Positions 30,991 to 43,024 of a stretch of 43,024 nt of DNA are shown here, piece by piece; the first letter of the stretch is position 1, and every line of letters starts with the position of its first letter. Location: NCBI GenBank assembly GCA_012727425.1, contig JAAYHQ010000047.1, forward strand, positions 77,155-120,178, read 5' to 3'. A program made the translations under genes and the position numbers. The stretch comes from Bacillota bacterium. GTDB lineage: Bacteria > Bacillota > UBA4882 > UBA10575. Below the pieces are notes generated by a model. That model had not been told where the DNA came from and ran no database searches. It saw only the letters and a list, made by a program, of their open reading frames with translations.

Positions 30991-32471
30991 AAGTGGCAAT
31001 GGCGCAGGAGATGCGGGAGATCGACCGGCTGGCCATGGAGGAATACGGCTATCCCGGGCTGCTTCTGATGGAACATGCGGCCCTCGCCCTGTTCCAGGCG
31101 ATCAAGGCCCGTTTTCCCCTGGAAAAAGTGGGCATTGTCTGTGGTAAAGGCAACAACGCCGGGGATGGTTGGGCTTTGGCCCGGTTGCTGACCCTGGCCG
31201 GCGCGGAAGTCCTGGTTTTTGCCCCGGAAGAAGAAGGGAAGCTGCCCCCGGACGCGGCGACCAACCGGGCGGTCGCGCGGTGTTTAGGGATTAAGGAAGC
31301 GCCCTGGTCGGCTTTGCTGGCCGATCCGTCTTTACTTTCCTCCTTTTCGGTTCTGGTCGATGCGCTTTTGGGGACCGGGTTCAAAGGAGAAGTGGCGGCG
31401 GAAATGGGCGCTGTTATTAATGCGCTGAATGCGACGGACCGGCCGGTGGTGGCCGTGGATCTACCGTCCGGGGTGGAAGCCGACACCGGACGGGTGCCGG
31501 GGCCGGCGGTACGGGCCACGTTGACCGTCACCTTTGGCCTGCCCAAAGTAGGCCTGCTGGTCTATCCGGGACGGGAGTATGCCGGTGAGTTGATTGTCGA
31601 TCCGATCGGCCTCCCCCCGCCCTTGTTGACGGAGCGGGCCACCGCCTACTACACTTTAAACCGGGATGAACTGGCGCCCTTGCTGCCAGTCCGGCGGCCG
31701 GAGGCCCATAAAGGAACCCACGGCCACCTGCTGGTGGTGGGCGGGGCACCGGGGATGACCGGGGCACCGGTCCTGGCCGGGCTGGCCGCCCTGCGGAGCG
31801 GGGCGGGTCTGGTGACGTTGGGGGTGCGGGATGGGCTGAACCTGCCCGAAAAACCCGTAGAACTAATGGTTAAACCTTGGTCGCAGTTGCAATGGGACGA
31901 TTACGACGCCATCGTGGTCGGGCCGGGACTCTCGACCCAACCGGACGGGATGGCGCTCTTGACAGCGCTCCTCGGCCGCCCGCGGCCCTGCCGTGTGTTC
32001 GACGCCGACGCCCTTAATCTACTGGCGTTAATCCCGCGGTGGTGGGAACAGGTCAAGGGGGCGCTTGTCTTGACCCCGCATCCGGGGGAGATGGCCCGGC
32101 TTTGCGGCCTCTCGGCCGGGGCGGTTCAGGCCGACCGTTTGGGTTTGGTCAAGGAAAAAACCGGACAATGGGGGGTTACGCTTGTGCTGAAGGGCGCGGC
32201 GACCCTCGTGGGCCATGGGGAAGATCCGGTTTATATCAACACCACCGGTAATCCGGCGCTGGCCACCGGGGGGACCGGTGACGTTTTGGCGGGCATGATC
32301 GGCGGCCTTTTGGCCCAGGGGTTACCGCCCGCCCAGGCGGCCGTGGTTGGGGTCAACCTTCATGGGCAAGCTGGAGACCTGGCGGCCGCGGAGATTGGCC
32401 CGGCCGGGGTCCTGGCGGGGGATCTGCTGCCGCGGATCCCGCGGGTTATGGGAATGGGGGCAGGCCAATGA
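30987..32471 (+). CDS. nnr: Bifunctional NAD(P)H-hydrate epimerase / ADP-dependent (S)-NAD(P)H-hydrate dehydratase
   Basis: 494 residues. Residues 1-215 are the NnrE (YjeF N-terminal) epimerase with CGKGNNAGDGWALAR and VVAVDLPSGVEADTG. Residues 230-490 are the NnrD dehydratase of the ribokinase-like fold, with the signature NTTGNPALATGGTGDVLAGM. Together they repair hydrated NADH and NADPH. The fused form is usual in bacteria. Start and stop overlap acpS and alr by four bases each. The product ends MGMGAGQ. Confidence 0.95.
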   Translation: MKVAMAQEMREIDRLAMEEYGYPGLLLMEHAALALFQAIKARFPLEKVGIVCGKGNNAGDGWALARLLTLAGAEVLVFAPEEEGKLPPDAATNRAVARCLGIKEAPWSALLADPSLLSSFSVLVDALLGTGFKGEVAAEMGAVINALNATDRPVVAVDLPSGVEADTGRVPGPAVRATLTVTFGLPKVGLLVYPGREYAGELIVDPIGLPPPLLTERATAYYTLNRDELAPLLPVRRPEAHKGTHGHLLVVGGAPGMTGAPVLAGLAALRSGAGLVTLGVRDGLNLPEKPVELMVKPWSQLQWDDYDAIVVGPGLSTQPDGMALLTALLGRPRPCRVFDADALNLLALIPRWWEQVKGALVLTPHPGEMARLCGLSAGAVQADRLGLVKEKTGQWGVTLVLKGAATLVGHGEDPVYINTTGNPALATGGTGDVLAGMIGGLLAQGLPPAQAAVVGVNLHGQAGDLAAAEIGPAGVLAGDLLPRIPRVMGMGAGQ

Positions 32472-33601
32472 TGAGCAGTAAAACACAGATCATCCGTCCG
32501 ACCTGGGTGGAGATCGACCGGGCAGCGATCCGCGCCAATCTTCGGGGGATCAAAGCTTTGGTGGGACCGGAGTGCCAAGTGATGGCGGTGGTTAAAGCCG
32601 AAGCATACGGCCACGGGGCCAGTGCCGTTGCTCAACTGGCCACGGCGGAAGGGATCGACTGGTTTGGGGTGGCGCTGCCGGAGGAGGGGATCGCCCTCCG
32701 CCGCGCGGGGGTAGACGGTAACATTCTCGTCTTTGCTCCCTTCCTGCCGGAGCAGGCGGCGGCATTTTGCACCCACGATCTGGTGGCGACCATCACCACC
32801 TGGGAGGGGGCGGCCGCCCTGTCCGCGGAAGCGTGCCGGCGGGGCCACAAGGCGCGGGTCCATATCAAGGTTGATACCGGAATGGGGCGGATCGGTTTTT
32901 GGGCGGCCGAGGCCGCGGCGGCCATCGCCAGAATCATGACTCTGCCGGGACTCACTGTTGAGGGGTTATACACCCACTTTGCCACGGCCGACGCGGCCGA
33001 CCGGACCTACGCCCGGCAGCAACTGTGCACTTTTCAGCAGTTGGTTGCTGAACTGGAAGGCAAAGGGATCAACATCCCCTTGAAACACATGGCCAACAGC
33101 GGCGGGATCCTGAATTTCCCCGACAGTTATTTTGACCTGGTGCGGCCCGGGTTGATTCTGTACGGAATGCTTCCCTCACCGTGGTGCGCGCAGGAGAAGA
33201 TCAGGCTGCAACCGGCTTTTTCCCTCAAAACCAAAGTGGTGTTCGTCAAACGGGCACCGGCGGGGACGGGGATTAGTTACGGCCAGTGTTACCACACCCC
33301 AAAGGCGACGACCATTGCCACCCTGCCGATTGGGTACGCCGACGGCTGGAGCCGCGCGCTTTCGGGAAAAGCCCGCGTTTTGATTAACGGCGCTTATTAC
33401 CCGGTGGTGGGAACGATCTGTATGGACCAATGCATGGTTGATGTGGGTGATGCACCGGTCCGAATCGGTGATGAAGTGGTGCTCATTGGGAAACAGCAGG
33501 GAAAGGTGATTACGGTGGAGGAGGTCGCCGCGCACCTGAACACCATCAACTATGAGGTGGTCTGTCAGATCAGCAGCCGGGTACCCCGAATCTATATCTA
33601 A
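32468..33601 (+). CDS. alr: Alanine racemase
   Basis: 377 residues. The PLP lysine is K43 in VVKAEAYGHG (most relatives have KADAYGHG). The second catalytic base is the Tyr in TGISYGQCY. PLP phosphate contacts are in LKHMANSGGILNF, and the substrate entry segment in VGTICMDQCMVDVGD. It makes D-alanine for peptidoglycan, and in spore formers may also act at the spore coat. ATGATG at the start overlaps the nnr stop. It ends the operon; a strong hairpin follows at 33686. Confidence 0.95.
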   Translation: MMSSKTQIIRPTWVEIDRAAIRANLRGIKALVGPECQVMAVVKAEAYGHGASAVAQLATAEGIDWFGVALPEEGIALRRAGVDGNILVFAPFLPEQAAAFCTHDLVATITTWEGAAALSAEACRRGHKARVHIKVDTGMGRIGFWAAEAAAAIARIMTLPGLTVEGLYTHFATADAADRTYARQQLCTFQQLVAELEGKGINIPLKHMANSGGILNFPDSYFDLVRPGLILYGMLPSPWCAQEKIRLQPAFSLKTKVVFVKRAPAGTGISYGQCYHTPKATTIATLPIGYADGWSRALSGKARVLINGAYYPVVGTICMDQCMVDVGDAPVRIGDEVVLIGKQQGKVITVEEVAAHLNTINYEVVCQISSRVPRIYI

Positions 33602-33792: not shown

Positions 33793-36700
33793 TTAAAGAA
33801 TAAGCAGGACCCGGTGGAGTTCGCCGTCGTTGACCAGGGGGATACCGGCCTCGACGTTCTCCACCCTTTCCCCGTCCAACTCCAGGTAGGTGCCGCCCGT
33901 CTGTTTCCGTTCGGGATTTTCGACTTTAATCTCGTACCTGGTCTGTCCGTACCAATAACCGACGGTAAACTCGGGCCAGTCCTCCGGGATGCACGGTTGG
34001 ATATAGAGTCGGGTCCCGCGGCGCCGGATGCCCAGGATCCACTCCAGGCCCGCCTGGTACATCCAGCCGGCCGAGCCCGTATACCAAGTCCAGCCGCCGC
34101 GGCCGGCATGGGGCGGGACGGAGTAAACATCGGCCGCCATCACGTACGGTTCAACCCTATAGCGCTGGACCTCATTGTAGGTCCGGGTCTGGTTGATCGG
34201 ATTCAAGATCCGGAACAGGTCATAGGCCCGGTTCCCCTGGCCTAAAAGGGCCCAGGCGATCACGGCCCAGATCGTGCCGTGGGTGTACTGCCCGCCGTTT
34301 TCCCTGATCCCGGGCGGATACGCCTGGATATAACCGGGGCTGGGTTCGGTTTTGTCGAAGGGCGGCGTCAGGAGACAGATGAGCGCGCCATCTTCCCGGC
34401 GGACCAGTTTATTGTCCAATGAATTCATTGCCAGGATCGCCTTGTCAGGCTCAGCGGCGCCGGAAATAACGCCCCAGGCTTGGGCGATACAGTCAATCTG
34501 GCATTCCTCATTGGTGATGGAACCGATGGGTTCGCCGCGGTCGTTATAGGCCCGCCGGTACCATTGTCCATCCCACCCGTGTTCATTGAGGGCGACGATC
34601 AAGTCATTACAGATGGCGGTGTAACGCTCGGCGCGGGCCGTATCTTTTAGTTTGACGGCAAACGGGATGAACTCCTGGAGAACATGGTAGAGGAACCAGC
34701 CCAGCCAGACGCTTTCCCCCTTGCCGCCGGCCCCGATCTCACTCATCCCGTCATTCCAGTCGCCCGTGCCCATTAAGGGGAGACCATGCTCGCCAAAGCG
34801 GAGGGCCCGTTCAATGGCGCGGACACAGTGTTCATAGATGGTTCCCGTCTCCGTGGAGACCTTGGCCTGTTCATAACGTTCCAGTTCATGGTCGGCCAAG
34901 GGCGGACTTTCCAGGAACGGAACCCGGTGTTTCCAAATTCGCATGTCACCGGTGTGCTTGGCGTAACGACAGACGGCATAGGGCAGCCACAAGAGATCAT
35001 CGGAGAAACGGGTTCGGATTCCATAGCCGGTCTCTTTATGCCACCAGTGTTGGACGTCGCCCTCTAAATACTGGTGGGCGGCATGGAGTAGGATCTGTCT
35101 GCGGGCGAACCCGGGCCGGGCATGGAGTAAGGCCAGGACGTCCTGGAGCTGATCCCGGTAACCATAAGCCCCTCCGGACTGGTAAAAGGCGCTGCGGGCC
35201 CATAAACGGCAGCTAACCGTCTGGTAGAGCAGCCAGTTGTTGAGGAGGAGATCGAAGGCCCGGTCCGGGGTGGCCACTTGCACCCGGCCCAACAGATCGG
35301 ACCAGAATTTTCTGACGGTTTTGTAGGCGGCTTCGACGCCGGCACGCCGTCCGTACTTCCGCATGTATTCTCTGACCTGTTCTTTGGAGGAAGCCGAACC
35401 AACCAGAATATTGATGGTCCGTTCCCCGTGAGGCGGCAGGTAAACCTTGACTTGCATCGCCCCGCAGGGGTTATACCGGGCTCCCGTCGTGTTCGACAGG
35501 CGCTTCCGCTTGAGGGCCGCCGGGAAGGACAGACTGCCGTTGCGGCCAATAAACTCCGCCCGGTCCCCGGTCCAGCTGCGGTCGAGCTCCGGACCGCCGG
35601 TCCAGATGCCAAGAAAGGCGTACTGGTCCCGGAAGTCTTTCTGGTAGACATTCCGCGCCAACAGCGCCCCGCTGTGGCGGTCGTATTCGGTGATGATAAA
35701 GGGGGCGTTTTTTTCTCGGTTGACGCCTAATGTCCATTCCAAGTAGTGGGTGACGGCAATCTCCCGTTCCCGGTCCTCGGTATTTTGCAAGGTGAGACGG
35801 AGGATCTTCACCGGGGCGTCAATGGGCGTAAAGACCAGACCGGTCTGGTTGATCCCTTGGCTGTGGTGTTCAAAGACGGTATAACCCTGGCCGTGGCGCA
35901 CCGTATAAGGTTCGGTATCCCGGATCGGCAAGGCCGTTAGTGACCATAATAGGCCGGTCTTTTCATCCCGGAGGTAACAAATCTCGCCGGAAGGATCAAG
36001 CACCGGATCGTTGGACCACGGGGTCAATTTATATTCCCGGCTGTTGGCGGCCCAAGTGTAGCCACCCCCGGATTCGGAGACCGTAAAGCCAAACCGGGGA
36101 TTGGCGATGACGTTGCTCCACGGGGTGGGAAGGAGATCCTTCGTCCGCAACTGGATCACATATTCTTTGCCGTCGGGCGTAAAGCCGCCCCACCCGTTGA
36201 AGAAAAGCAATTCTTCCGGCGGCTCGGTCGGGATGTAATTGGCTTCCACCGGCGCCGGTAGTTGTACGAGCAAGGGTTCCGGTAAGGTGCGCCGGCGGTC
36301 CAAAACCGGCCGGAGCTGGGAACGGATGGATCCGCCGTCGCTGCGGAGCACAATCCGGGCCACCATCTCGAGCAAGATCTGATCCTCTCGGGGTATGGTC
36401 GGCGCGGCGAACAGGAAGACGCCGCCCGGTTGCTCGAAGCCTTCCGGTTCCGGGAAAGCGTAGATGATCCGTTGGACCGCCTCGAAGAGGGTTTGGCGGT
36501 AACCTTCTTCGTTGTTGATCAGGATCACCAAGTCGGTGATTAATCCTTTGCGCTTCCAATACTGATGGTAGCGGAGGAGCCGCTCGGCAAGGACGGTTCC
36601 GTTTTCGTCTTCCAGCCAGAGCAGGATCAGCGGCAGATCGCCGGAGATCCCGTAAGCCCACAGCGCCGATTGGTCTTTGACGTTTTTGGGAAGCACGCTG

Positions 36701-39700
36701 CTGCGTGTCCGCTGGTAATAGTTGTAGTAAAAGAGCTGCGAAGCCAGCTGCTGGAGCAGACTCACCTGGTGCAGCGGGATCTTCATCTCTTGCAGTTCCA
36801 GTTGGGCGCGGTTGTAAGCTAATTCACAGGCCTGTTCGAAACTATAGGGTGTGGCCAACCGGTCGACTAGCGCCAAAGCCTCTTCCCGGGTTGGGGCGAC
36901 GCCGGTAATAAAGGTGAAGTTGGCGGTCTCACCGGGATTCAGTTGCACCCGCCGCCGCAACGCGAAGACGGGGTCGAGCACCGCACCGGTGGTACCGGAT
37001 AACCGCTGGTTGGTCTCGATCACCACCGGGATGCGGTAGGAACGGCCGCGACCAACGAACCGGGAGCGGTCGGTCTCAAACTCCAAGGGACCGAAGGTTG
37101 GCACGTCGACGTGAAGTGCATGGACCAGCCATGGTGACGGATTGGGTTTGCCGGTCCGGCGGTGGGCCAAGAGCGCCCCGGCTTCCAAGTCCACCTCTGT
37201 TTCGATAAACAGTTTGTTGAAAGCAGGATGGGCTTGAAAAGCATCTTTCCGGGCCAACACCGGTTCGAGATAACTGGTGACCTCAAGCATGCAAAGGGAG
37301 TTGCCCAAGTTGGTCAGGGAAAGTTGGCGAATCTCCGCATCTTCGTCCGGAACCACGCAGATCTTCAGTTGCGTCTGGATATCCCCGTGGGTTTTGGTGA
37401 AGACGATCCGGTCCAGTTCCGCATCCATGGTCATCGGGTCCGCACCGTTCCGGAGGGGATGGAAGGTCGGTGACCAGGTGCTGCCGTCGGCGATGTTTTT
37501 AATATAGAAGAAGACGCCATGGTGATCTTTGATCGGGTCCTCTTCCCACCGAGTCAACAGAAGATCCTTATACTGACTGAATCCCCCGCCGCTGTTGGAG
37601 ACCATCACCAAATAACGGCCGTTGGATAGGAAATGGGCGACGGGCAACGGGGTATCGTACGACGCGTAGAAGCGCGGGTCGAATCCTTCGTCCCGTTGGT
37701 AGCGATCCGGGATGTATCTTGGGATCTGCTGGTGCGTCTTGACCACCGTGGGCGCTTGAATCCGCTCGTGTAACAACAGATCGGTGCTGACCACCCGCGG
37801 ATCGTTGAGGAACCGGCGGTGCATCAAGTTCCCGTGGAGGAGGTTCCCCAACGCCATGAAGGACATACCCTGGTGGTGCGCCATGTAGCTTTTGACGACG
37901 GCATAATTCCGTTTCTTTGGGAGGCGCTCCGGAGTAAAGTCCAGGGCTTCGTAGAACCCGAACTCGCCCAAGGCTCCATACTTTTCCATCTGGACGAGGT
38001 TGCTCACTGCTTCCTTGGGCGCCACCATGGCGGCCAGGAAGGTGGCATAGGGCGCGACCACCCGTTCTTTCTCAAGGCCTTGTTTCAGGGCGAGGGTGGG
38101 AACCCCAAAGGCCCGGTACTGATAGTTTAAACGATGATCAAAGGCATAATAGCCGGATTCGGAGACCCCCCACGGCAGCCCCAGTTTTTTGCCGTAGTCG
38201 ATCTGGCTCTTCACCATCAGTTGGTAAGTCTGCTCCCAGAGCGTATTGGGGTGGCAAGTCATCACCAGCAAGGGCATCAAGTACTCAAAAGCCGTTCCAG
38301 TCCAGGAGATCAAGACCGGTTTGCGGCCGACCAGGGTCGAGGTGCGGCTCATTGACGTCCAATGCTTGATCGGCACCTGCCCCAGGGCAATTGCCATAAA
38401 GCTGGCCTGGCGGGCTTCAGAGGCCAAAATGTTGTAGTAGGACGAATCCAGGCGTTGATTGGTGACGTTATAGCCGATGGCGAAGAGACGCCGCTGCCGG
38501 TCGTAGAGCGGAGTAAAGTCATGGGCGGTGATAAGCGTCTCCAACCGGGCACAGAGTTGCTGACCTTCGTTGATCAACTCTTCACACCGGGCTTTTGAAG
38601 TTAAAAGCAGTTGGGCCAAAGCCGGAGGCTCCGCTTCTGCCGCGCTGACACTCTCCGCTTCAGCCAGGGCAATGACCTCGCCAAAGTTCTTCACCGCGCT
38701 TAATTTATGGGCCAGATCCGGCGCGGGTTCCGCACCGGTCGCTTCCACCTGCGGCAACCAAGGGAAGAACCATTCCAGCTCTTCGAGCTGCTGCTCAATG
38801 GCGGTCAACGTATGGCGGAGCAGGTCCCGGCTTTCCGGTGTCACCTCTTCCCGGGCCTTTTTTAGCCGGCGATACCAGGTCAGGATGGTAGGTTCGTCCT
38901 CAAAGGCGGGTCCGAACAGGGGACGCCAGGAAGCAACGGTCTCCGCTTTTGGCTGCTCCCAGCGGACCGTATCCATCACCCCTTGACCCAAACCCTTGGC
39001 CCAAGGCTGCTGTAACCATTCTTTAATCCCCTCTTTTGCCACGAGGAGGTAGACCAGGAGGTTGCCGCTGTCTACCGTGGACACATATAAAGGAAGCAAG
39101 GGTTCGAGGGTAACAGTATTATACCAATTGTAGAAGTGCCCCTCCCAGCGGGGGAGGCGTTCCAAAGTGTCGATGGTTTGCCCGATCTTCGCCACCATCT
39201 GTTTGGTGGTGATATACCCAAAATCCCGGGCGGTAACGACCGAAGCCAGGTAAAGCCCGATATTGGTGGGTGAAGTCCGATGGGCGATCCCGTTGTCCGG
39301 ATCCACTTGCAGATTGTCCGGTGGTAACCAGTTGTCCTCTGCGGTGACCACGGTTTCGAAAAAGTGCCAGATCCGCCGGGCGTTTTCCCGCAGGTAGCTT
39401 TGTTCCGCGGCATTAAGTACTCTTCGCTGGGGCCGCCGCGGCACGGCCGTCAGATGTACCCAGAGTGGTGCGGAGAGCCAAAGAACGGCGAAAGGAACCA
39501 TCCAGGGCAGACCGGACGGGACTTTGACCCAAAAGAAGACCAACCCGGCCAGGGTGAGAAGCTGCCCGCGGCGCATACTTTTCCAGACGCCCCATAAAGT
39601 ATTCGGGGCCTGTTTTCCGGCTTCCGAGGCGGTCCGCCACTCTAAAAGATGGCGGCGGGAGATTTTCATCCGGTACAAGGTCCGGATAATGGCGTCGACC

Positions 39701-42342
39701 ATCATTACGGCTTCATAGGGCAGGACGACCAAGCCGAACAGATCACGGCCCAGGCAATGGAGGAGCGGGACTCCGCCGAAGCGGACCGTCCGGATTAAGC
39801 GTTGGAGATAATCCACGGCCAACAGGCCAAGGATTCCCCAGTGGAGGGGAAGGACCTGCACCGCCTGTCCCGGGAAAACAGCGAGACAGAGCCCAATGAA
39901 GAGAAGCAGGGCGGGCGCGACCAGACTGCGACGTAAGTTATCCACCATCTGCCAACAGGTGACCGGCGGCAGATGAACAGGCGTCTCGGTCCCATCCTGG
40001 TCGGGCACGCTCTTTTTTAACCAGGGCAAGAGCTGCCAATCCCCCCGGACCCAGCGGTGGAAACGGGACAGATTGCCGAGAAAGGAGGACGGGTAGTCTT
40101 CCAGCAACTCGATATCACTGACGAAACCGGCGCGGAGAAAGCCGCCCTCCAGGAGGTCGTGGCTTAAAATCGCGTTTTCCGGAAAGCGTTTCCGGAGCAA
40201 ACGGTCGAAGATCCGGGCGTCGTAGATCCCCTTCCCCGCAAAGATTCCATGCCCGAAGAGGTCCTGATAAGGGTTGGAGACCGCACTGCTGTAGAGGTCG
40301 ATCCCCCATTGGTTACTGTGGAGGAGTGCAAAGACGGAATGGTTGGCGCTGGCGTTACTGATGGCCATTTTCGGCTGTAAAATGCCGTAACCTTTGACGA
40401 CGATCCCCTTCTCTTCGTCGACCACCGGGGCGTTCAACGGATGGGCAATCGTTCCGATCAGACGGCGAGCGGCTTCACGGGGCAACTGCGTATCTGAGTC
40501 CAAGGTGATTACGTAGCGGATCTGTTTATAAAACTCGCGGTCGCCGGTGACCGTCGTAAAACTGGTCTCTTCGACCCCGGCGAGTAGCGCGTTGAACTCG
40601 GTAAGTTTCCCGCGCTTCCGTTCCCAACCCATCCAGACCCCTTCCTGGGGATTGTACCGCCGCTCGCGGTGTAATAGATGGAAATAACTTTCGCCCTCCG
40701 GATGGGGGTAACGCTCGTTCAAGGCGGCGATCCCGGCCAGGGCCGCTTCGAGGAGCGGGGCGTCTTCCGGACGCTCCTTTTCCGCGGCATCGGAAAAATC
40801 GGTCAGCAGGGCGAAATAGATGTGCGGATCGGTATTGGCCAGATGGTAGACTTCCAGTTTCCGCAGTAAAGACTCAACATCCTCCATACTCCCTAAAATC
40901 GTAGGGATCACCACCATCGTCGCCGCCTCGAGCGGAATGCCGTTGCGGAATTCGATCTTTGGTAGGATCTGCGGCGGAAAAACCCAATTCAAGACCGCAT
41001 GGACCAAACGGACGGCGCTTCCGGCCACCGGGGCAAGCAGCAACAGACCGGCGAAAACCAACTGTAGAGGGGTAAAGGCCTGTAAGGCGGATAAGGACCA
41101 CAAAAGACCGGTATAGATCAGCAAAAAACAAAGGACCAAAGAGGGGAAATAGACCAAATTCGGCTTTGCGCGCGCGGTCCGCCGGAAATGACGGAGGCCG
41201 CCCCCTTTACAATTTAAGGTTTGGGCCAGCTCTTTCCAGCCATCATCCAGCAGATAATACCCGACATGGGTCTTGACATTACCTTCGCCCGGGTTTTTGG
41301 TGGCCGCCCGGGCCAAAGCCAACACCTTTTCGGCGATTTTTTCTTCCGGTAACCGCCATTCGCGGGCAAACAACTCCACCTCACGCCGCATTAAGCTGCG
41401 GCTCTCGTAATCCATCTCCGGGTAGATCCGGGCCGGATCCTGGCGCAGGGTCTGCTCGACCAGGCTTAACTCTTCAAAATACTCATCCCACAGGGCCAGA
41501 TTGACCTCCTGCAGCCCGCGGAAGAAGTTGCCGGCCATTGTCCGGTAGCTGGCTTGCCGTTGATGTTCCCGTTCTTTTAAATCGGAAAGGGTGAGATTTT
41601 CCGCCTTTACCCGGGCATCGAGCCAGTAGAGGAGGGGTTTTAAATCGGCGGACCGGCGGAATTCCTGTTCCAAAAAGAGCAGAACTGAAGGATCGGCCAG
41701 ATCCATGTATTTTTCCAACTTGAAAATGGCCTTGTTCAGCTGTTGGGTTCCCTCTTTCAACAGCGGGGCCACTTTTTCCGACCAGATCTTCTTTTGGTTG
41801 GCCGGTAACTGTTCTTGATTCAAATGTACATAAAGTTCGCGGAGCTGGTGGAAGATGACAAAACGCAGCATGAGCGGGATCGCCCACAACTCACCGATGG
41901 TTAAGGGTTGGATTTGCTGATAAGCCCAGAGAAAACTGACCAAAACTTCCGGATCGGACTTACCCCCGGTGACCTTGAGCAGTTCATAAAGGATGGCATA
42001 AATCCGGTACAAACCTTTCATCTTTCCCGAAGTCAGGACCGGTAACCGCCGGAAATGGCTGATGGACAAGTTTTGCCGAATATACTTGTACTGTTCGAGC
42101 AGGAGATAATGGTTGTCCAACAACCACTCGGCGGCCGGGGGAAGCATCGCTTCCTCTTCTTCCGCTTTGGCCAAAAAATTACGGTAAACCGCATTTAACA
42201 AACGTAGATCGTGTTTTACCTGGCGTTTGAGGCGTACGCTTCGGGAAAATGTAATGCCCTTTTGTTCCCTGGCAAGTTGGCGTGCATATTCCAAAAGTTC
42301 TTCCAATTGGAGAGAGGTTGTTGTCGTCAGCAAACGCACCAT
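33793..42342 (-). CDS. Cyclic beta-1,2-glucan synthase (NdvB/Cgs family), 2849 residues
   Basis: One uninterrupted frame, as long as the proteobacterial enzymes. Residues 1-395: helical region of unknown role. 398-460: membrane helices. 480-790: GT84 glycosyltransferase, with LDSDTQLP (D615, D617), SHDLLEGG and RFHRWVRGDWQ (around 764-769). 805-965: further membrane helices. About 980-1520: glycoamylase-like domain (GH144/GH189-related), with HRTSPTNIGLYLAS and MAHHQGMS (near 1487), which in studied homologues performs the cyclisation. 1560-2300: two carbohydrate-phosphorylase beta-sandwich regions. 2350-2849: GH94 catalytic domain with GTGDWNDGMSEIG (D2528, D2531). It would polymerise UDP-glucose into beta-1,2-glucan and close the ring. 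The start is ATG 42342 with AAAGGA directly adjacent; GTG or TTG at codons 2 or 4 are better spaced. No transporter gene (ndvA/chvA type) is next to it. Confidence 0.93.
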   Translation of the reverse strand: MVRLLTTTTSLQLEELLEYARQLAREQKGITFSRSVRLKRQVKHDLRLLNAVYRNFLAKAEEEEAMLPPAAEWLLDNHYLLLEQYKYIRQNLSISHFRRLPVLTSGKMKGLYRIYAILYELLKVTGGKSDPEVLVSFLWAYQQIQPLTIGELWAIPLMLRFVIFHQLRELYVHLNQEQLPANQKKIWSEKVAPLLKEGTQQLNKAIFKLEKYMDLADPSVLLFLEQEFRRSADLKPLLYWLDARVKAENLTLSDLKEREHQRQASYRTMAGNFFRGLQEVNLALWDEYFEELSLVEQTLRQDPARIYPEMDYESRSLMRREVELFAREWRLPEEKIAEKVLALARAATKNPGEGNVKTHVGYYLLDDGWKELAQTLNCKGGGLRHFRRTARAKPNLVYFPSLVLCFLLIYTGLLWSLSALQAFTPLQLVFAGLLLLAPVAGSAVRLVHAVLNWVFPPQILPKIEFRNGIPLEAATMVVIPTILGSMEDVESLLRKLEVYHLANTDPHIYFALLTDFSDAAEKERPEDAPLLEAALAGIAALNERYPHPEGESYFHLLHRERRYNPQEGVWMGWERKRGKLTEFNALLAGVEETSFTTVTGDREFYKQIRYVITLDSDTQLPREAARRLIGTIAHPLNAPVVDEEKGIVVKGYGILQPKMAISNASANHSVFALLHSNQWGIDLYSSAVSNPYQDLFGHGIFAGKGIYDARIFDRLLRKRFPENAILSHDLLEGGFLRAGFVSDIELLEDYPSSFLGNLSRFHRWVRGDWQLLPWLKKSVPDQDGTETPVHLPPVTCWQMVDNLRRSLVAPALLLFIGLCLAVFPGQAVQVLPLHWGILGLLAVDYLQRLIRTVRFGGVPLLHCLGRDLFGLVVLPYEAVMMVDAIIRTLYRMKISRRHLLEWRTASEAGKQAPNTLWGVWKSMRRGQLLTLAGLVFFWVKVPSGLPWMVPFAVLWLSAPLWVHLTAVPRRPQRRVLNAAEQSYLRENARRIWHFFETVVTAEDNWLPPDNLQVDPDNGIAHRTSPTNIGLYLASVVTARDFGYITTKQMVAKIGQTIDTLERLPRWEGHFYNWYNTVTLEPLLPLYVSTVDSGNLLVYLLVAKEGIKEWLQQPWAKGLGQGVMDTVRWEQPKAETVASWRPLFGPAFEDEPTILTWYRRLKKAREEVTPESRDLLRHTLTAIEQQLEELEWFFPWLPQVEATGAEPAPDLAHKLSAVKNFGEVIALAEAESVSAAEAEPPALAQLLLTSKARCEELINEGQQLCARLETLITAHDFTPLYDRQRRLFAIGYNVTNQRLDSSYYNILASEARQASFMAIALGQVPIKHWTSMSRTSTLVGRKPVLISWTGTAFEYLMPLLVMTCHPNTLWEQTYQLMVKSQIDYGKKLGLPWGVSESGYYAFDHRLNYQYRAFGVPTLALKQGLEKERVVAPYATFLAAMVAPKEAVSNLVQMEKYGALGEFGFYEALDFTPERLPKKRNYAVVKSYMAHHQGMSFMALGNLLHGNLMHRRFLNDPRVVSTDLLLHERIQAPTVVKTHQQIPRYIPDRYQRDEGFDPRFYASYDTPLPVAHFLSNGRYLVMVSNSGGGFSQYKDLLLTRWEEDPIKDHHGVFFYIKNIADGSTWSPTFHPLRNGADPMTMDAELDRIVFTKTHGDIQTQLKICVVPDEDAEIRQLSLTNLGNSLCMLEVTSYLEPVLARKDAFQAHPAFNKLFIETEVDLEAGALLAHRRTGKPNPSPWLVHALHVDVPTFGPLEFETDRSRFVGRGRSYRIPVVIETNQRLSGTTGAVLDPVFALRRRVQLNPGETANFTFITGVAPTREEALALVDRLATPYSFEQACELAYNRAQLELQEMKIPLHQVSLLQQLASQLFYYNYYQRTRSSVLPKNVKDQSALWAYGISGDLPLILLWLEDENGTVLAERLLRYHQYWKRKGLITDLVILINNEEGYRQTLFEAVQRIIYAFPEPEGFEQPGGVFLFAAPTIPREDQILLEMVARIVLRSDGGSIRSQLRPVLDRRRTLPEPLLVQLPAPVEANYIPTEPPEELLFFNGWGGFTPDGKEYVIQLRTKDLLPTPWSNVIANPRFGFTVSESGGGYTWAANSREYKLTPWSNDPVLDPSGEICYLRDEKTGLLWSLTALPIRDTEPYTVRHGQGYTVFEHHSQGINQTGLVFTPIDAPVKILRLTLQNTEDREREIAVTHYLEWTLGVNREKNAPFIITEYDRHSGALLARNVYQKDFRDQYAFLGIWTGGPELDRSWTGDRAEFIGRNGSLSFPAALKRKRLSNTTGARYNPCGAMQVKVYLPPHGERTINILVGSASSKEQVREYMRKYGRRAGVEAAYKTVRKFWSDLLGRVQVATPDRAFDLLLNNWLLYQTVSCRLWARSAFYQSGGAYGYRDQLQDVLALLHARPGFARRQILLHAAHQYLEGDVQHWWHKETGYGIRTRFSDDLLWLPYAVCRYAKHTGDMRIWKHRVPFLESPPLADHELERYEQAKVSTETGTIYEHCVRAIERALRFGEHGLPLMGTGDWNDGMSEIGAGGKGESVWLGWFLYHVLQEFIPFAVKLKDTARAERYTAICNDLIVALNEHGWDGQWYRRAYNDRGEPIGSITNEECQIDCIAQAWGVISGAAEPDKAILAMNSLDNKLVRREDGALICLLTPPFDKTEPSPGYIQAYPPGIRENGGQYTHGTIWAVIAWALLGQGNRAYDLFRILNPINQTRTYNEVQRYRVEPYVMAADVYSVPPHAGRGGWTWYTGSAGWMYQAGLEWILGIRRRGTRLYIQPCIPEDWPEFTVGYWYGQTRYEIKVENPERKQTGGTYLELDGERVENVEAGIPLVNDGELHRVLLIL

Positions 42343-42413
42343 TCCTTTCTTTAATCAATGTTATTCTCTTCCCGAATTCAGTTTAATAATCAGGATCGTT
42401 GAAGCAACAGGCA

Positions 42414-42452
42414 CAGCAGCCTTCTCTTTTTGGTTCGTGCGGAAGGCTGCTG
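42414..42452 (-). other. 11-bp inverted repeat in the leader of the glucan synthase gene
   Basis: CAGCAGCCTTC (42414-42424) and GAAGGCTGCTG (42442-42452) are perfect complements with a 17-base loop. The element lies about 70-110 bases before the gene start on the minus strand. No T-tract follows on that strand, so it looks like a leader hairpin or protein site rather than a simple terminator. The surrounding 42343-42640 holds only short open frames that resemble no protein I know. Confidence 0.55.
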
Positions 42453-42664
42453 TTCATTGGCAAAGTCGGTCGGAATTGTGTTCGGTCCAAATGATGTTTG
42501 GTCTGTGCTTGTTTGAATCGAAGCGGGGAGCAACCGCGGAAGGAAAACCGGTGTGGGTCGCGGTTTTCAAGGTTGTCGCAAGGAAAACGTCGGCAAAAAT
42601 TGTGGTTTTGTCGCGGTAATTTATTGAAGATTAAAACATTTTGATGTTTAACCCAACTGTTCCT

Positions 42665-42692
42665 ACGTATACAATTATACATAATACGCAAG
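42665..42692 (-). promoter_or_regulatory. A/T-rich palindromic region, possible promoter of the glucan synthase gene
   Basis: The plus strand reads CGTATACAATTATACATAATACG here, with GTATA/TATAC palindromes. On the minus strand this gives TATAAT and TATACG as -10 candidates, with only weak -35 options. It is the most promoter-like segment within 400 bases upstream of the giant gene, but no complete consensus is seen. Confidence 0.3.
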
Positions 42693-42851
42693 AATCTTCC
42701 TGTTATGTTAAATATCACAAAAGAAACCAAAGGTCAACATGGCTTTCCGTAAAAAGCAAGTTACCGAAATGTTCCCGACAGGACCTCGGTCCGGTCAATT
42801 CGGTTGTAAACTGGCCTTTTCTGAACGGTTCCTTTTTCCTTTTTTTACGCC

Positions 42852-42875
42852 CTTAATCATAATTTAAGGATTAAG
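42852..42875. repeat. Inverted repeat CTTAATC/GATTAAG
   Basis: Perfect 7-base arms (42852-42858, 42869-42875) with a 10-base A/T-rich centre, preceded by a T-rich run on the plus strand. It could be a weak terminator or the outer boundary of a mobile element; nothing decides between these. Confidence 0.4.
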
Positions 42876-42891
42876 CTGAGTGTTTGCGGGC

Positions 42892-42959
42892 TGAAAACTC
42901 TGTCAATAGTCTATGAAAATGTCAGTAAAAAGCCTTAGTTTTATTCCGTGAAAATGTCA
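42892..42959 (+). repeat. Direct repeats TGAAAATGTCA, possible insertion-sequence end
   Basis: Two exact copies at 42914-42924 and 42949-42959 (35 bases apart), plus a degenerate third (TGAAAACTCTGTCA, 42892-42905). They end two bases before an ATG that stays open to the window edge. Repeated subterminal motifs of this kind occur at IS21-like element ends. The other end and the transposase are outside the window, so this is only suggestive. Confidence 0.4.
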
Positions 42960-42961
42960 CC

Positions 42962-43024
42962 ATGGGTTTTTTGCAAGAATTAGATTTCCACGTACAAGAT
43001 CCTATTGATAAAACGGGTCGACAA
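42962..43024 (+). CDS. Possible 5' end of a gene running off the right edge
   Basis: ATG at 42962 opens a frame of 21 codons to the end of the window, beginning MGFLQELDFHVQDP. No Shine-Dalgarno is evident, because the TGAAAATGTCA repeat occupies that position. Too short to identify; the repeats suggest a transposase. Confidence 0.35.
   Translation, partial: MGFLQELDFHVQDPIDKTGRQ

Follow-up and report, generated by a model that had tools for sequence, protein, structure and literature searches.

A predicted ring-making beta-1,2-glucan synthase with intact catalytic residues in a predicted diderm, spore-forming Firmicute

Osmoregulated cyclic glucans are usually treated as a Gram-negative, mostly Proteobacterial trait. 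The Agrobacterium synthase Cgs, whose domains run in the order NTD-TM/GT84-CY-GH94 with an insert, makes rings from UDP-glucose on its own in proteoliposomes. Its Y694 is the auto-glycosylated primer tyrosine, and its N-terminal domain is a TPR-like scaffold of the chamber around the Tyr-linked primer (PMC10901819). The synthase type is also already known from Firmicutes, where characterisation of the T. italicus CGS, the founding member of GH189 (8wy1), was confined to the cyclisation domain, with E1356 as acid/base and E1442 as nucleophile (PMC10834661). The class of T. italicus is reported to be without LPS-outer-membrane genes (PMC11448272), and diderm Firmicutes are described among the Limnochordia, Halanaerobiia and Negativicutes (PMC11456536, PMC11448272). 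Firmicute synthases span hosts with and without an outer membrane, which raises the questions of whether the glucans are tied to that membrane and what role a glucan plays in a cell without a periplasm. The literature that we searched held no enzyme activity or glucan from the class studied here, and nowhere described cyclic glucans in diderm Firmicutes. The present locus contributes to the Firmicute comparison a complete enzyme from one host that is predicted to be diderm and to sporulate.

The whole stretch of DNA analysed (43,024 nucleotides, hereafter the window) carries on its minus strand, at 33793-42342, a single uninterrupted open reading frame of 2849 codons (2849 aa) with an ATG start and no stops. 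The position and length agree exactly with the original prediction, to which the strand is a new detail. The encoded protein aligns end to end with A. tumefaciens Cgs/NdvB (residues 42-2796 against residues 63-2792 of 8rf0_A, 1892 bits), and residues 975-1529 match the T. italicus cyclisation domain (8wy1) with 499 bits. Pfam identified a GH94 supersandwich in two stretches, the GH94 catalytic domain and a 'Glycoamylase' (GH144/GH189-type) domain. Alignment, Pfam matches and catalytic residues together bear out the claim that GT84, membrane helices, cyclisation domain and GH94 are all intact in one gene, in the same domain order as in Agrobacterium Cgs.

All parts lie on the minus strand. The N-terminal domain (residues 1-394; 41161-42342) had been considered unexplained, but residues 42-391 match residues 63-404 of 8rf0 independently of the rest of the protein (E 9e-36), that is, the Agrobacterium N-terminal domain. 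It is followed by the membrane helices and the GT84 glucosyltransferase (residues 395-974; 39421-41160), where a hydropathy scan found about five hydrophobic regions flanking GT84 (395-423, 417-451, 803-833, 868-886 and 949-967). The GH189 cyclisation domain (residues 975-1535; 37738-39420) was delimited by alignment to 8wy1. Next comes a region that contains the second PF06165 stretch and is co-linear with 8rf0 (residues 1536-2050; 36193-37737); it corresponds to GP1, the first GH94 supersandwich, and a Rossmann-like insert, as these subdomains are named in PMC10901819. The GH94 phosphorylase part (residues 2051-2849; 33793-36192) completes the protein.

Alignment to the two described enzymes, with residues numbered according to PMC10901819 (Agrobacterium) and PMC10834661 (T. 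italicus), recovered every mapped catalytic residue. In GT84, Agrobacterium D527, D624, D626, D739 and R773 correspond to D515, D615, D617, D729 and R763 of the window protein, and the primer tyrosine Y694 corresponds to Y684 (codon at 40291-40293, minus strand). The GH189 residues E1356, E1400, E1442 and H1536/1537 of T. italicus correspond to E1309, E1353, E1395 and H1489/1490, so that the nucleophile, the acid/base and the supporting residues are identical in the two Firmicute enzymes. In GH94, Agrobacterium D2393 and the general acid D2528 are matched by D2397 and D2531. Across an alignment of 84 near-full-length homologues, the mapped catalytic residues are invariant with the sole exception of D515 (81/84), and the tyrosine is kept in 84/84. 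Missing catalytic residues had been named beforehand as what would refute the prediction, and none is missing.

We put at about three in four the probability that this protein is a ring-making synthase, combining GT84, GH94 and GH189, whose rings are exported to the periplasm as osmoregulated envelope glucans. Our analysis shows the order of the domains, the catalytic residues, the kinship of the enzyme and the gene sets for an outer membrane and for sporulation. The mechanism is transferred by analogy from the work on Agrobacterium and T. italicus; that the enzyme is active, that its product is a ring, and how this product is exported, where it goes and what it does in this host are inferred. 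In the cytoplasm, GT84 would lengthen a beta-1,2-glucan from UDP-glucose, with Tyr684 as its permanent primer site; GH94 would cut the chain to its final length, and GH189 would close it into a ring by intramolecular transglycosylation. An MsbA-like protein or another general ABC exporter would carry the rings, most likely into the periplasm beneath an LPS outer membrane, where they would serve as osmoregulated envelope glucans.

The host genome is a 2.18-Mb draft, 95.7% complete, with one synthase of this type. Three further GH94 proteins (contigs 15, 18 and 61) were considered as synthases and rejected, being free-standing phosphorylases of about 800 residues. The synthase is flanked by a convergent alanine racemase gene (32468-33601, plus strand), which adjoins it in the close relatives L005 (an 85% relative), L027 and G008 as well. 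On the other side, contig 8 breaks off just 682 bp from the synthase start, so the upstream neighbourhood is not visible. About 0.9 kb upstream of the synthase start codon, the sister genome G008 has the 5' end of a 16S rRNA gene, read directly from its motif. An Rfam search of the window and its relatives gave nothing at gathering score, the G008 16S piece being too short for a match. Where the contig ends lies a short repeat of some 119 bp (42899-43017, unstranded), which is 97% identical to L005:19-137 and 84% identical over 63 bp to L120. Since the L120 copy continues into an apparent transposase gene, the repeat is probably the edge of an insertion sequence.

Comparison with G008 bears on the history of this DNA. 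From residue 1 to about residue 1000, and on into the DNA upstream, the window and G008 share 99% identity (window 39,340-42,901; L097), whereas identity falls to 71-94% over the remainder of the synthase and to about 82-86% in the neighbouring genes. The sharp switch in identity lies near 39,340, and the window and G008 contigs both end near it. Two readings fit the tract: species exchanged DNA recently, or one of the two drafts has a chimeric contig end. It is possible, though we consider it the less probable case, that the 2849-codon gene is a fusion, near residue 1000, of copies from two species, produced either by recent recombination or during assembly. Against such a join, the same full-length architecture is found in the relatives L005/G006, G016 and G009, and the G008 bin shows signs of foreign contigs, so the fault may be on the G008 side. 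A join of this kind concerns the history of the DNA; it is compatible with a ring-making, periplasmic system, and the conclusion on architecture is independent of it. G008:C27:25000-26898 and G008:C7:9621-11504 hold a copy of the ABC exporter from contig 27 of the window genome (protein 100%) and G008's own 79% ortholog. That G008 has both its own ortholog and a second gene nearly identical to that of the window genome suggests that its bin is contaminated.

The gene content of the host predicts a diderm, spore-forming Firmicute, in contrast to the Proteobacterial host of Agrobacterium Cgs. LpxC was detected with 304.6 bits, and a cluster on contig 65 encodes LpxC, FabZ, an LpxA-like protein, LpxI, an ABC ATPase and LptF/G. 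An operon on contig 46 (L110) encodes KdsB-KdsA-KdsD-KdsC, an MsbA-like exporter, an LpxL-type acyltransferase and WaaA, with a second, WaaA-like KDO transferase incomplete at the contig edge; the genome also has Spo0A. Of the outer-membrane markers sought, two Omp85 proteins exceed the PF01103 cut-off, and LptD was not found in the host genome by PF04453. Because the latter model gave a match in just 2 of 14 control genomes, it may have missed a divergent LptD. Among the possibilities originally raised for this host, an outer membrane like that of diderm Firmicutes is therefore supported by lpxC, lpxI, fabZ, the KDO operon, lptF/G and the two Omp85 proteins. Of 29 genomes of the class, 28 have LpxC and all 29 have Spo0A. 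Relatives labelled Hydrogenispora or Bacillota lead us to infer that this class is the Limnochordia or its neighbour. The presence of lpx, kds, lptF/G and Omp85 genes in a Spo0A-bearing genome agrees with what is reported for diderm, Limnochordia-like Firmicutes (PMC11456536), apart from the LptD result.

Two further loci touch on the envelope. A protein of 825 residues with a hydrophobic start and no Pfam family (L130:13188-15665) is encoded within the outer-membrane cluster, directly upstream of an ABC ATPase and LpxC, and is a possible candidate for an envelope-transport partner. In addition, one contig encodes a SpoIID-domain protein and, some 2 kb away, an Omp85 protein (L108:8460-9419 and L108:11567-12769), so that genes for sporulation and for the outer membrane are close neighbours.

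We then considered how the rings might leave the cytoplasm. Unlike Agrobacterium, the window genome has no ChvA/NdvA-type exporter above cut-off in a whole-genome search with NCBIfam TIGR01192, the best score being 328 bits against a cut-off of 585. The ranking is led by the MsbA-like protein of the KDO operon (328), followed by an MsbA-like protein on contig 67 (302) and then a pair on contig 27. Co-occurrence named no partner: nearly all genomes of the class have the contig-67 exporter, and the exporter of contig 27 is patchy and does not track the synthase. The statement that no exporter lies at this locus is true within the window, although the upstream side is cut by the contig end. Its absence had been taken as meaningful but proved uninformative. 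No ABC exporter adjoins the synthase in any of the 36 relatives with at least 8 kb on both sides, and one occurs in the surveyed stretch at only 1 of 77 synthase loci from many phyla. Because an adjoining exporter is rare in every phylum examined, its absence here is not special, and neighbourhood likewise yields no dedicated exporter. A genome search for beta-1,2-glucanases of the GH144/GH189 type (PF10091) returned no protein besides the synthase itself.

Alternatively, a working enzyme may make rings that remain cytoplasmic, serving for storage or as a compatible solute, or that are released outside the cell. We regard this as unlikely. The failure of the TIGR01192 search and of co-occurrence to find a dedicated exporter is consistent with it, as is the occurrence of a synthase in Thermoanaerobacter, whose class is reported without LPS-outer-membrane genes (PMC11448272). 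Related synthases are also present in Acetivibrio and Acidaminobacter. Both genera are Clostridia generally regarded as monoderm. Since Firmicutes without an outer membrane also carry the synthase, an outer membrane is no requirement for it. However, the outer-membrane gene set of this host is rich, the genome has no second PF10091 enzyme with which the glucan could be reused, and a neighbouring exporter is absent as a rule in all phyla examined.

The synthase had been regarded as unusual for Firmicutes, but a long match was found in 28 of 199 genomes sampled across the phylum, and the T. italicus enzyme is one that has been partly characterised (PMC10834661). Within the class, the long open copies have identities of 92, 85, 72, 62, 53, 50 and 50%, and several genomes are without a synthase; a 'Hydrogenispora sp.' MAG, at 85%, is the closest record that carries a name. 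The synthase is probably under selection, as full-length open copies at 50-92% identity persist in several species of the class. In a GT84 tree of 83 rows, which are the best matches of a longer list and not an unbiased sample, the members of the class group together (SH-aLRT 98); a Desulfitobacteriaceae MAG attaches to them (99), as do Clostridia (85), and the Proteobacterial rows lie elsewhere. Firmicute enzymes thus cluster apart from those of Proteobacteria. A tentative extension, which we think rather improbable as a whole, is that cyclic beta-1,2-glucan synthesis dates to a diderm Firmicute ancestor, with periplasmic use kept here, repurposing in monoderms, and export by a general MsbA-like protein.

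Recent acquisition of the synthase from Proteobacteria could account for its patchy presence within the class and the phylum. It is nonetheless very unlikely, as the tree sets both the class (98) and the Firmicutes (85) apart from Proteobacteria, and the composition of the gene matches its neighbourhood (GC 0.575 against 0.567 for the window; GC3 0.71, inside the range of the neighbours). The least probable reading, that the gene is a relic or makes linear glucan only, has nothing in its favour beyond general divergence, with about 40% identity to Proteobacterial enzymes (including a Rhizobiaceae relative, Shinella, in the alignment), and we reject it because the primer tyrosine is kept along with all three active sites, there are no stops, and other species of the class have intact orthologues. 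Two synthase copies are present in one relative (G020:C225 and G020:C167), and one of them reads as two separate open frames.
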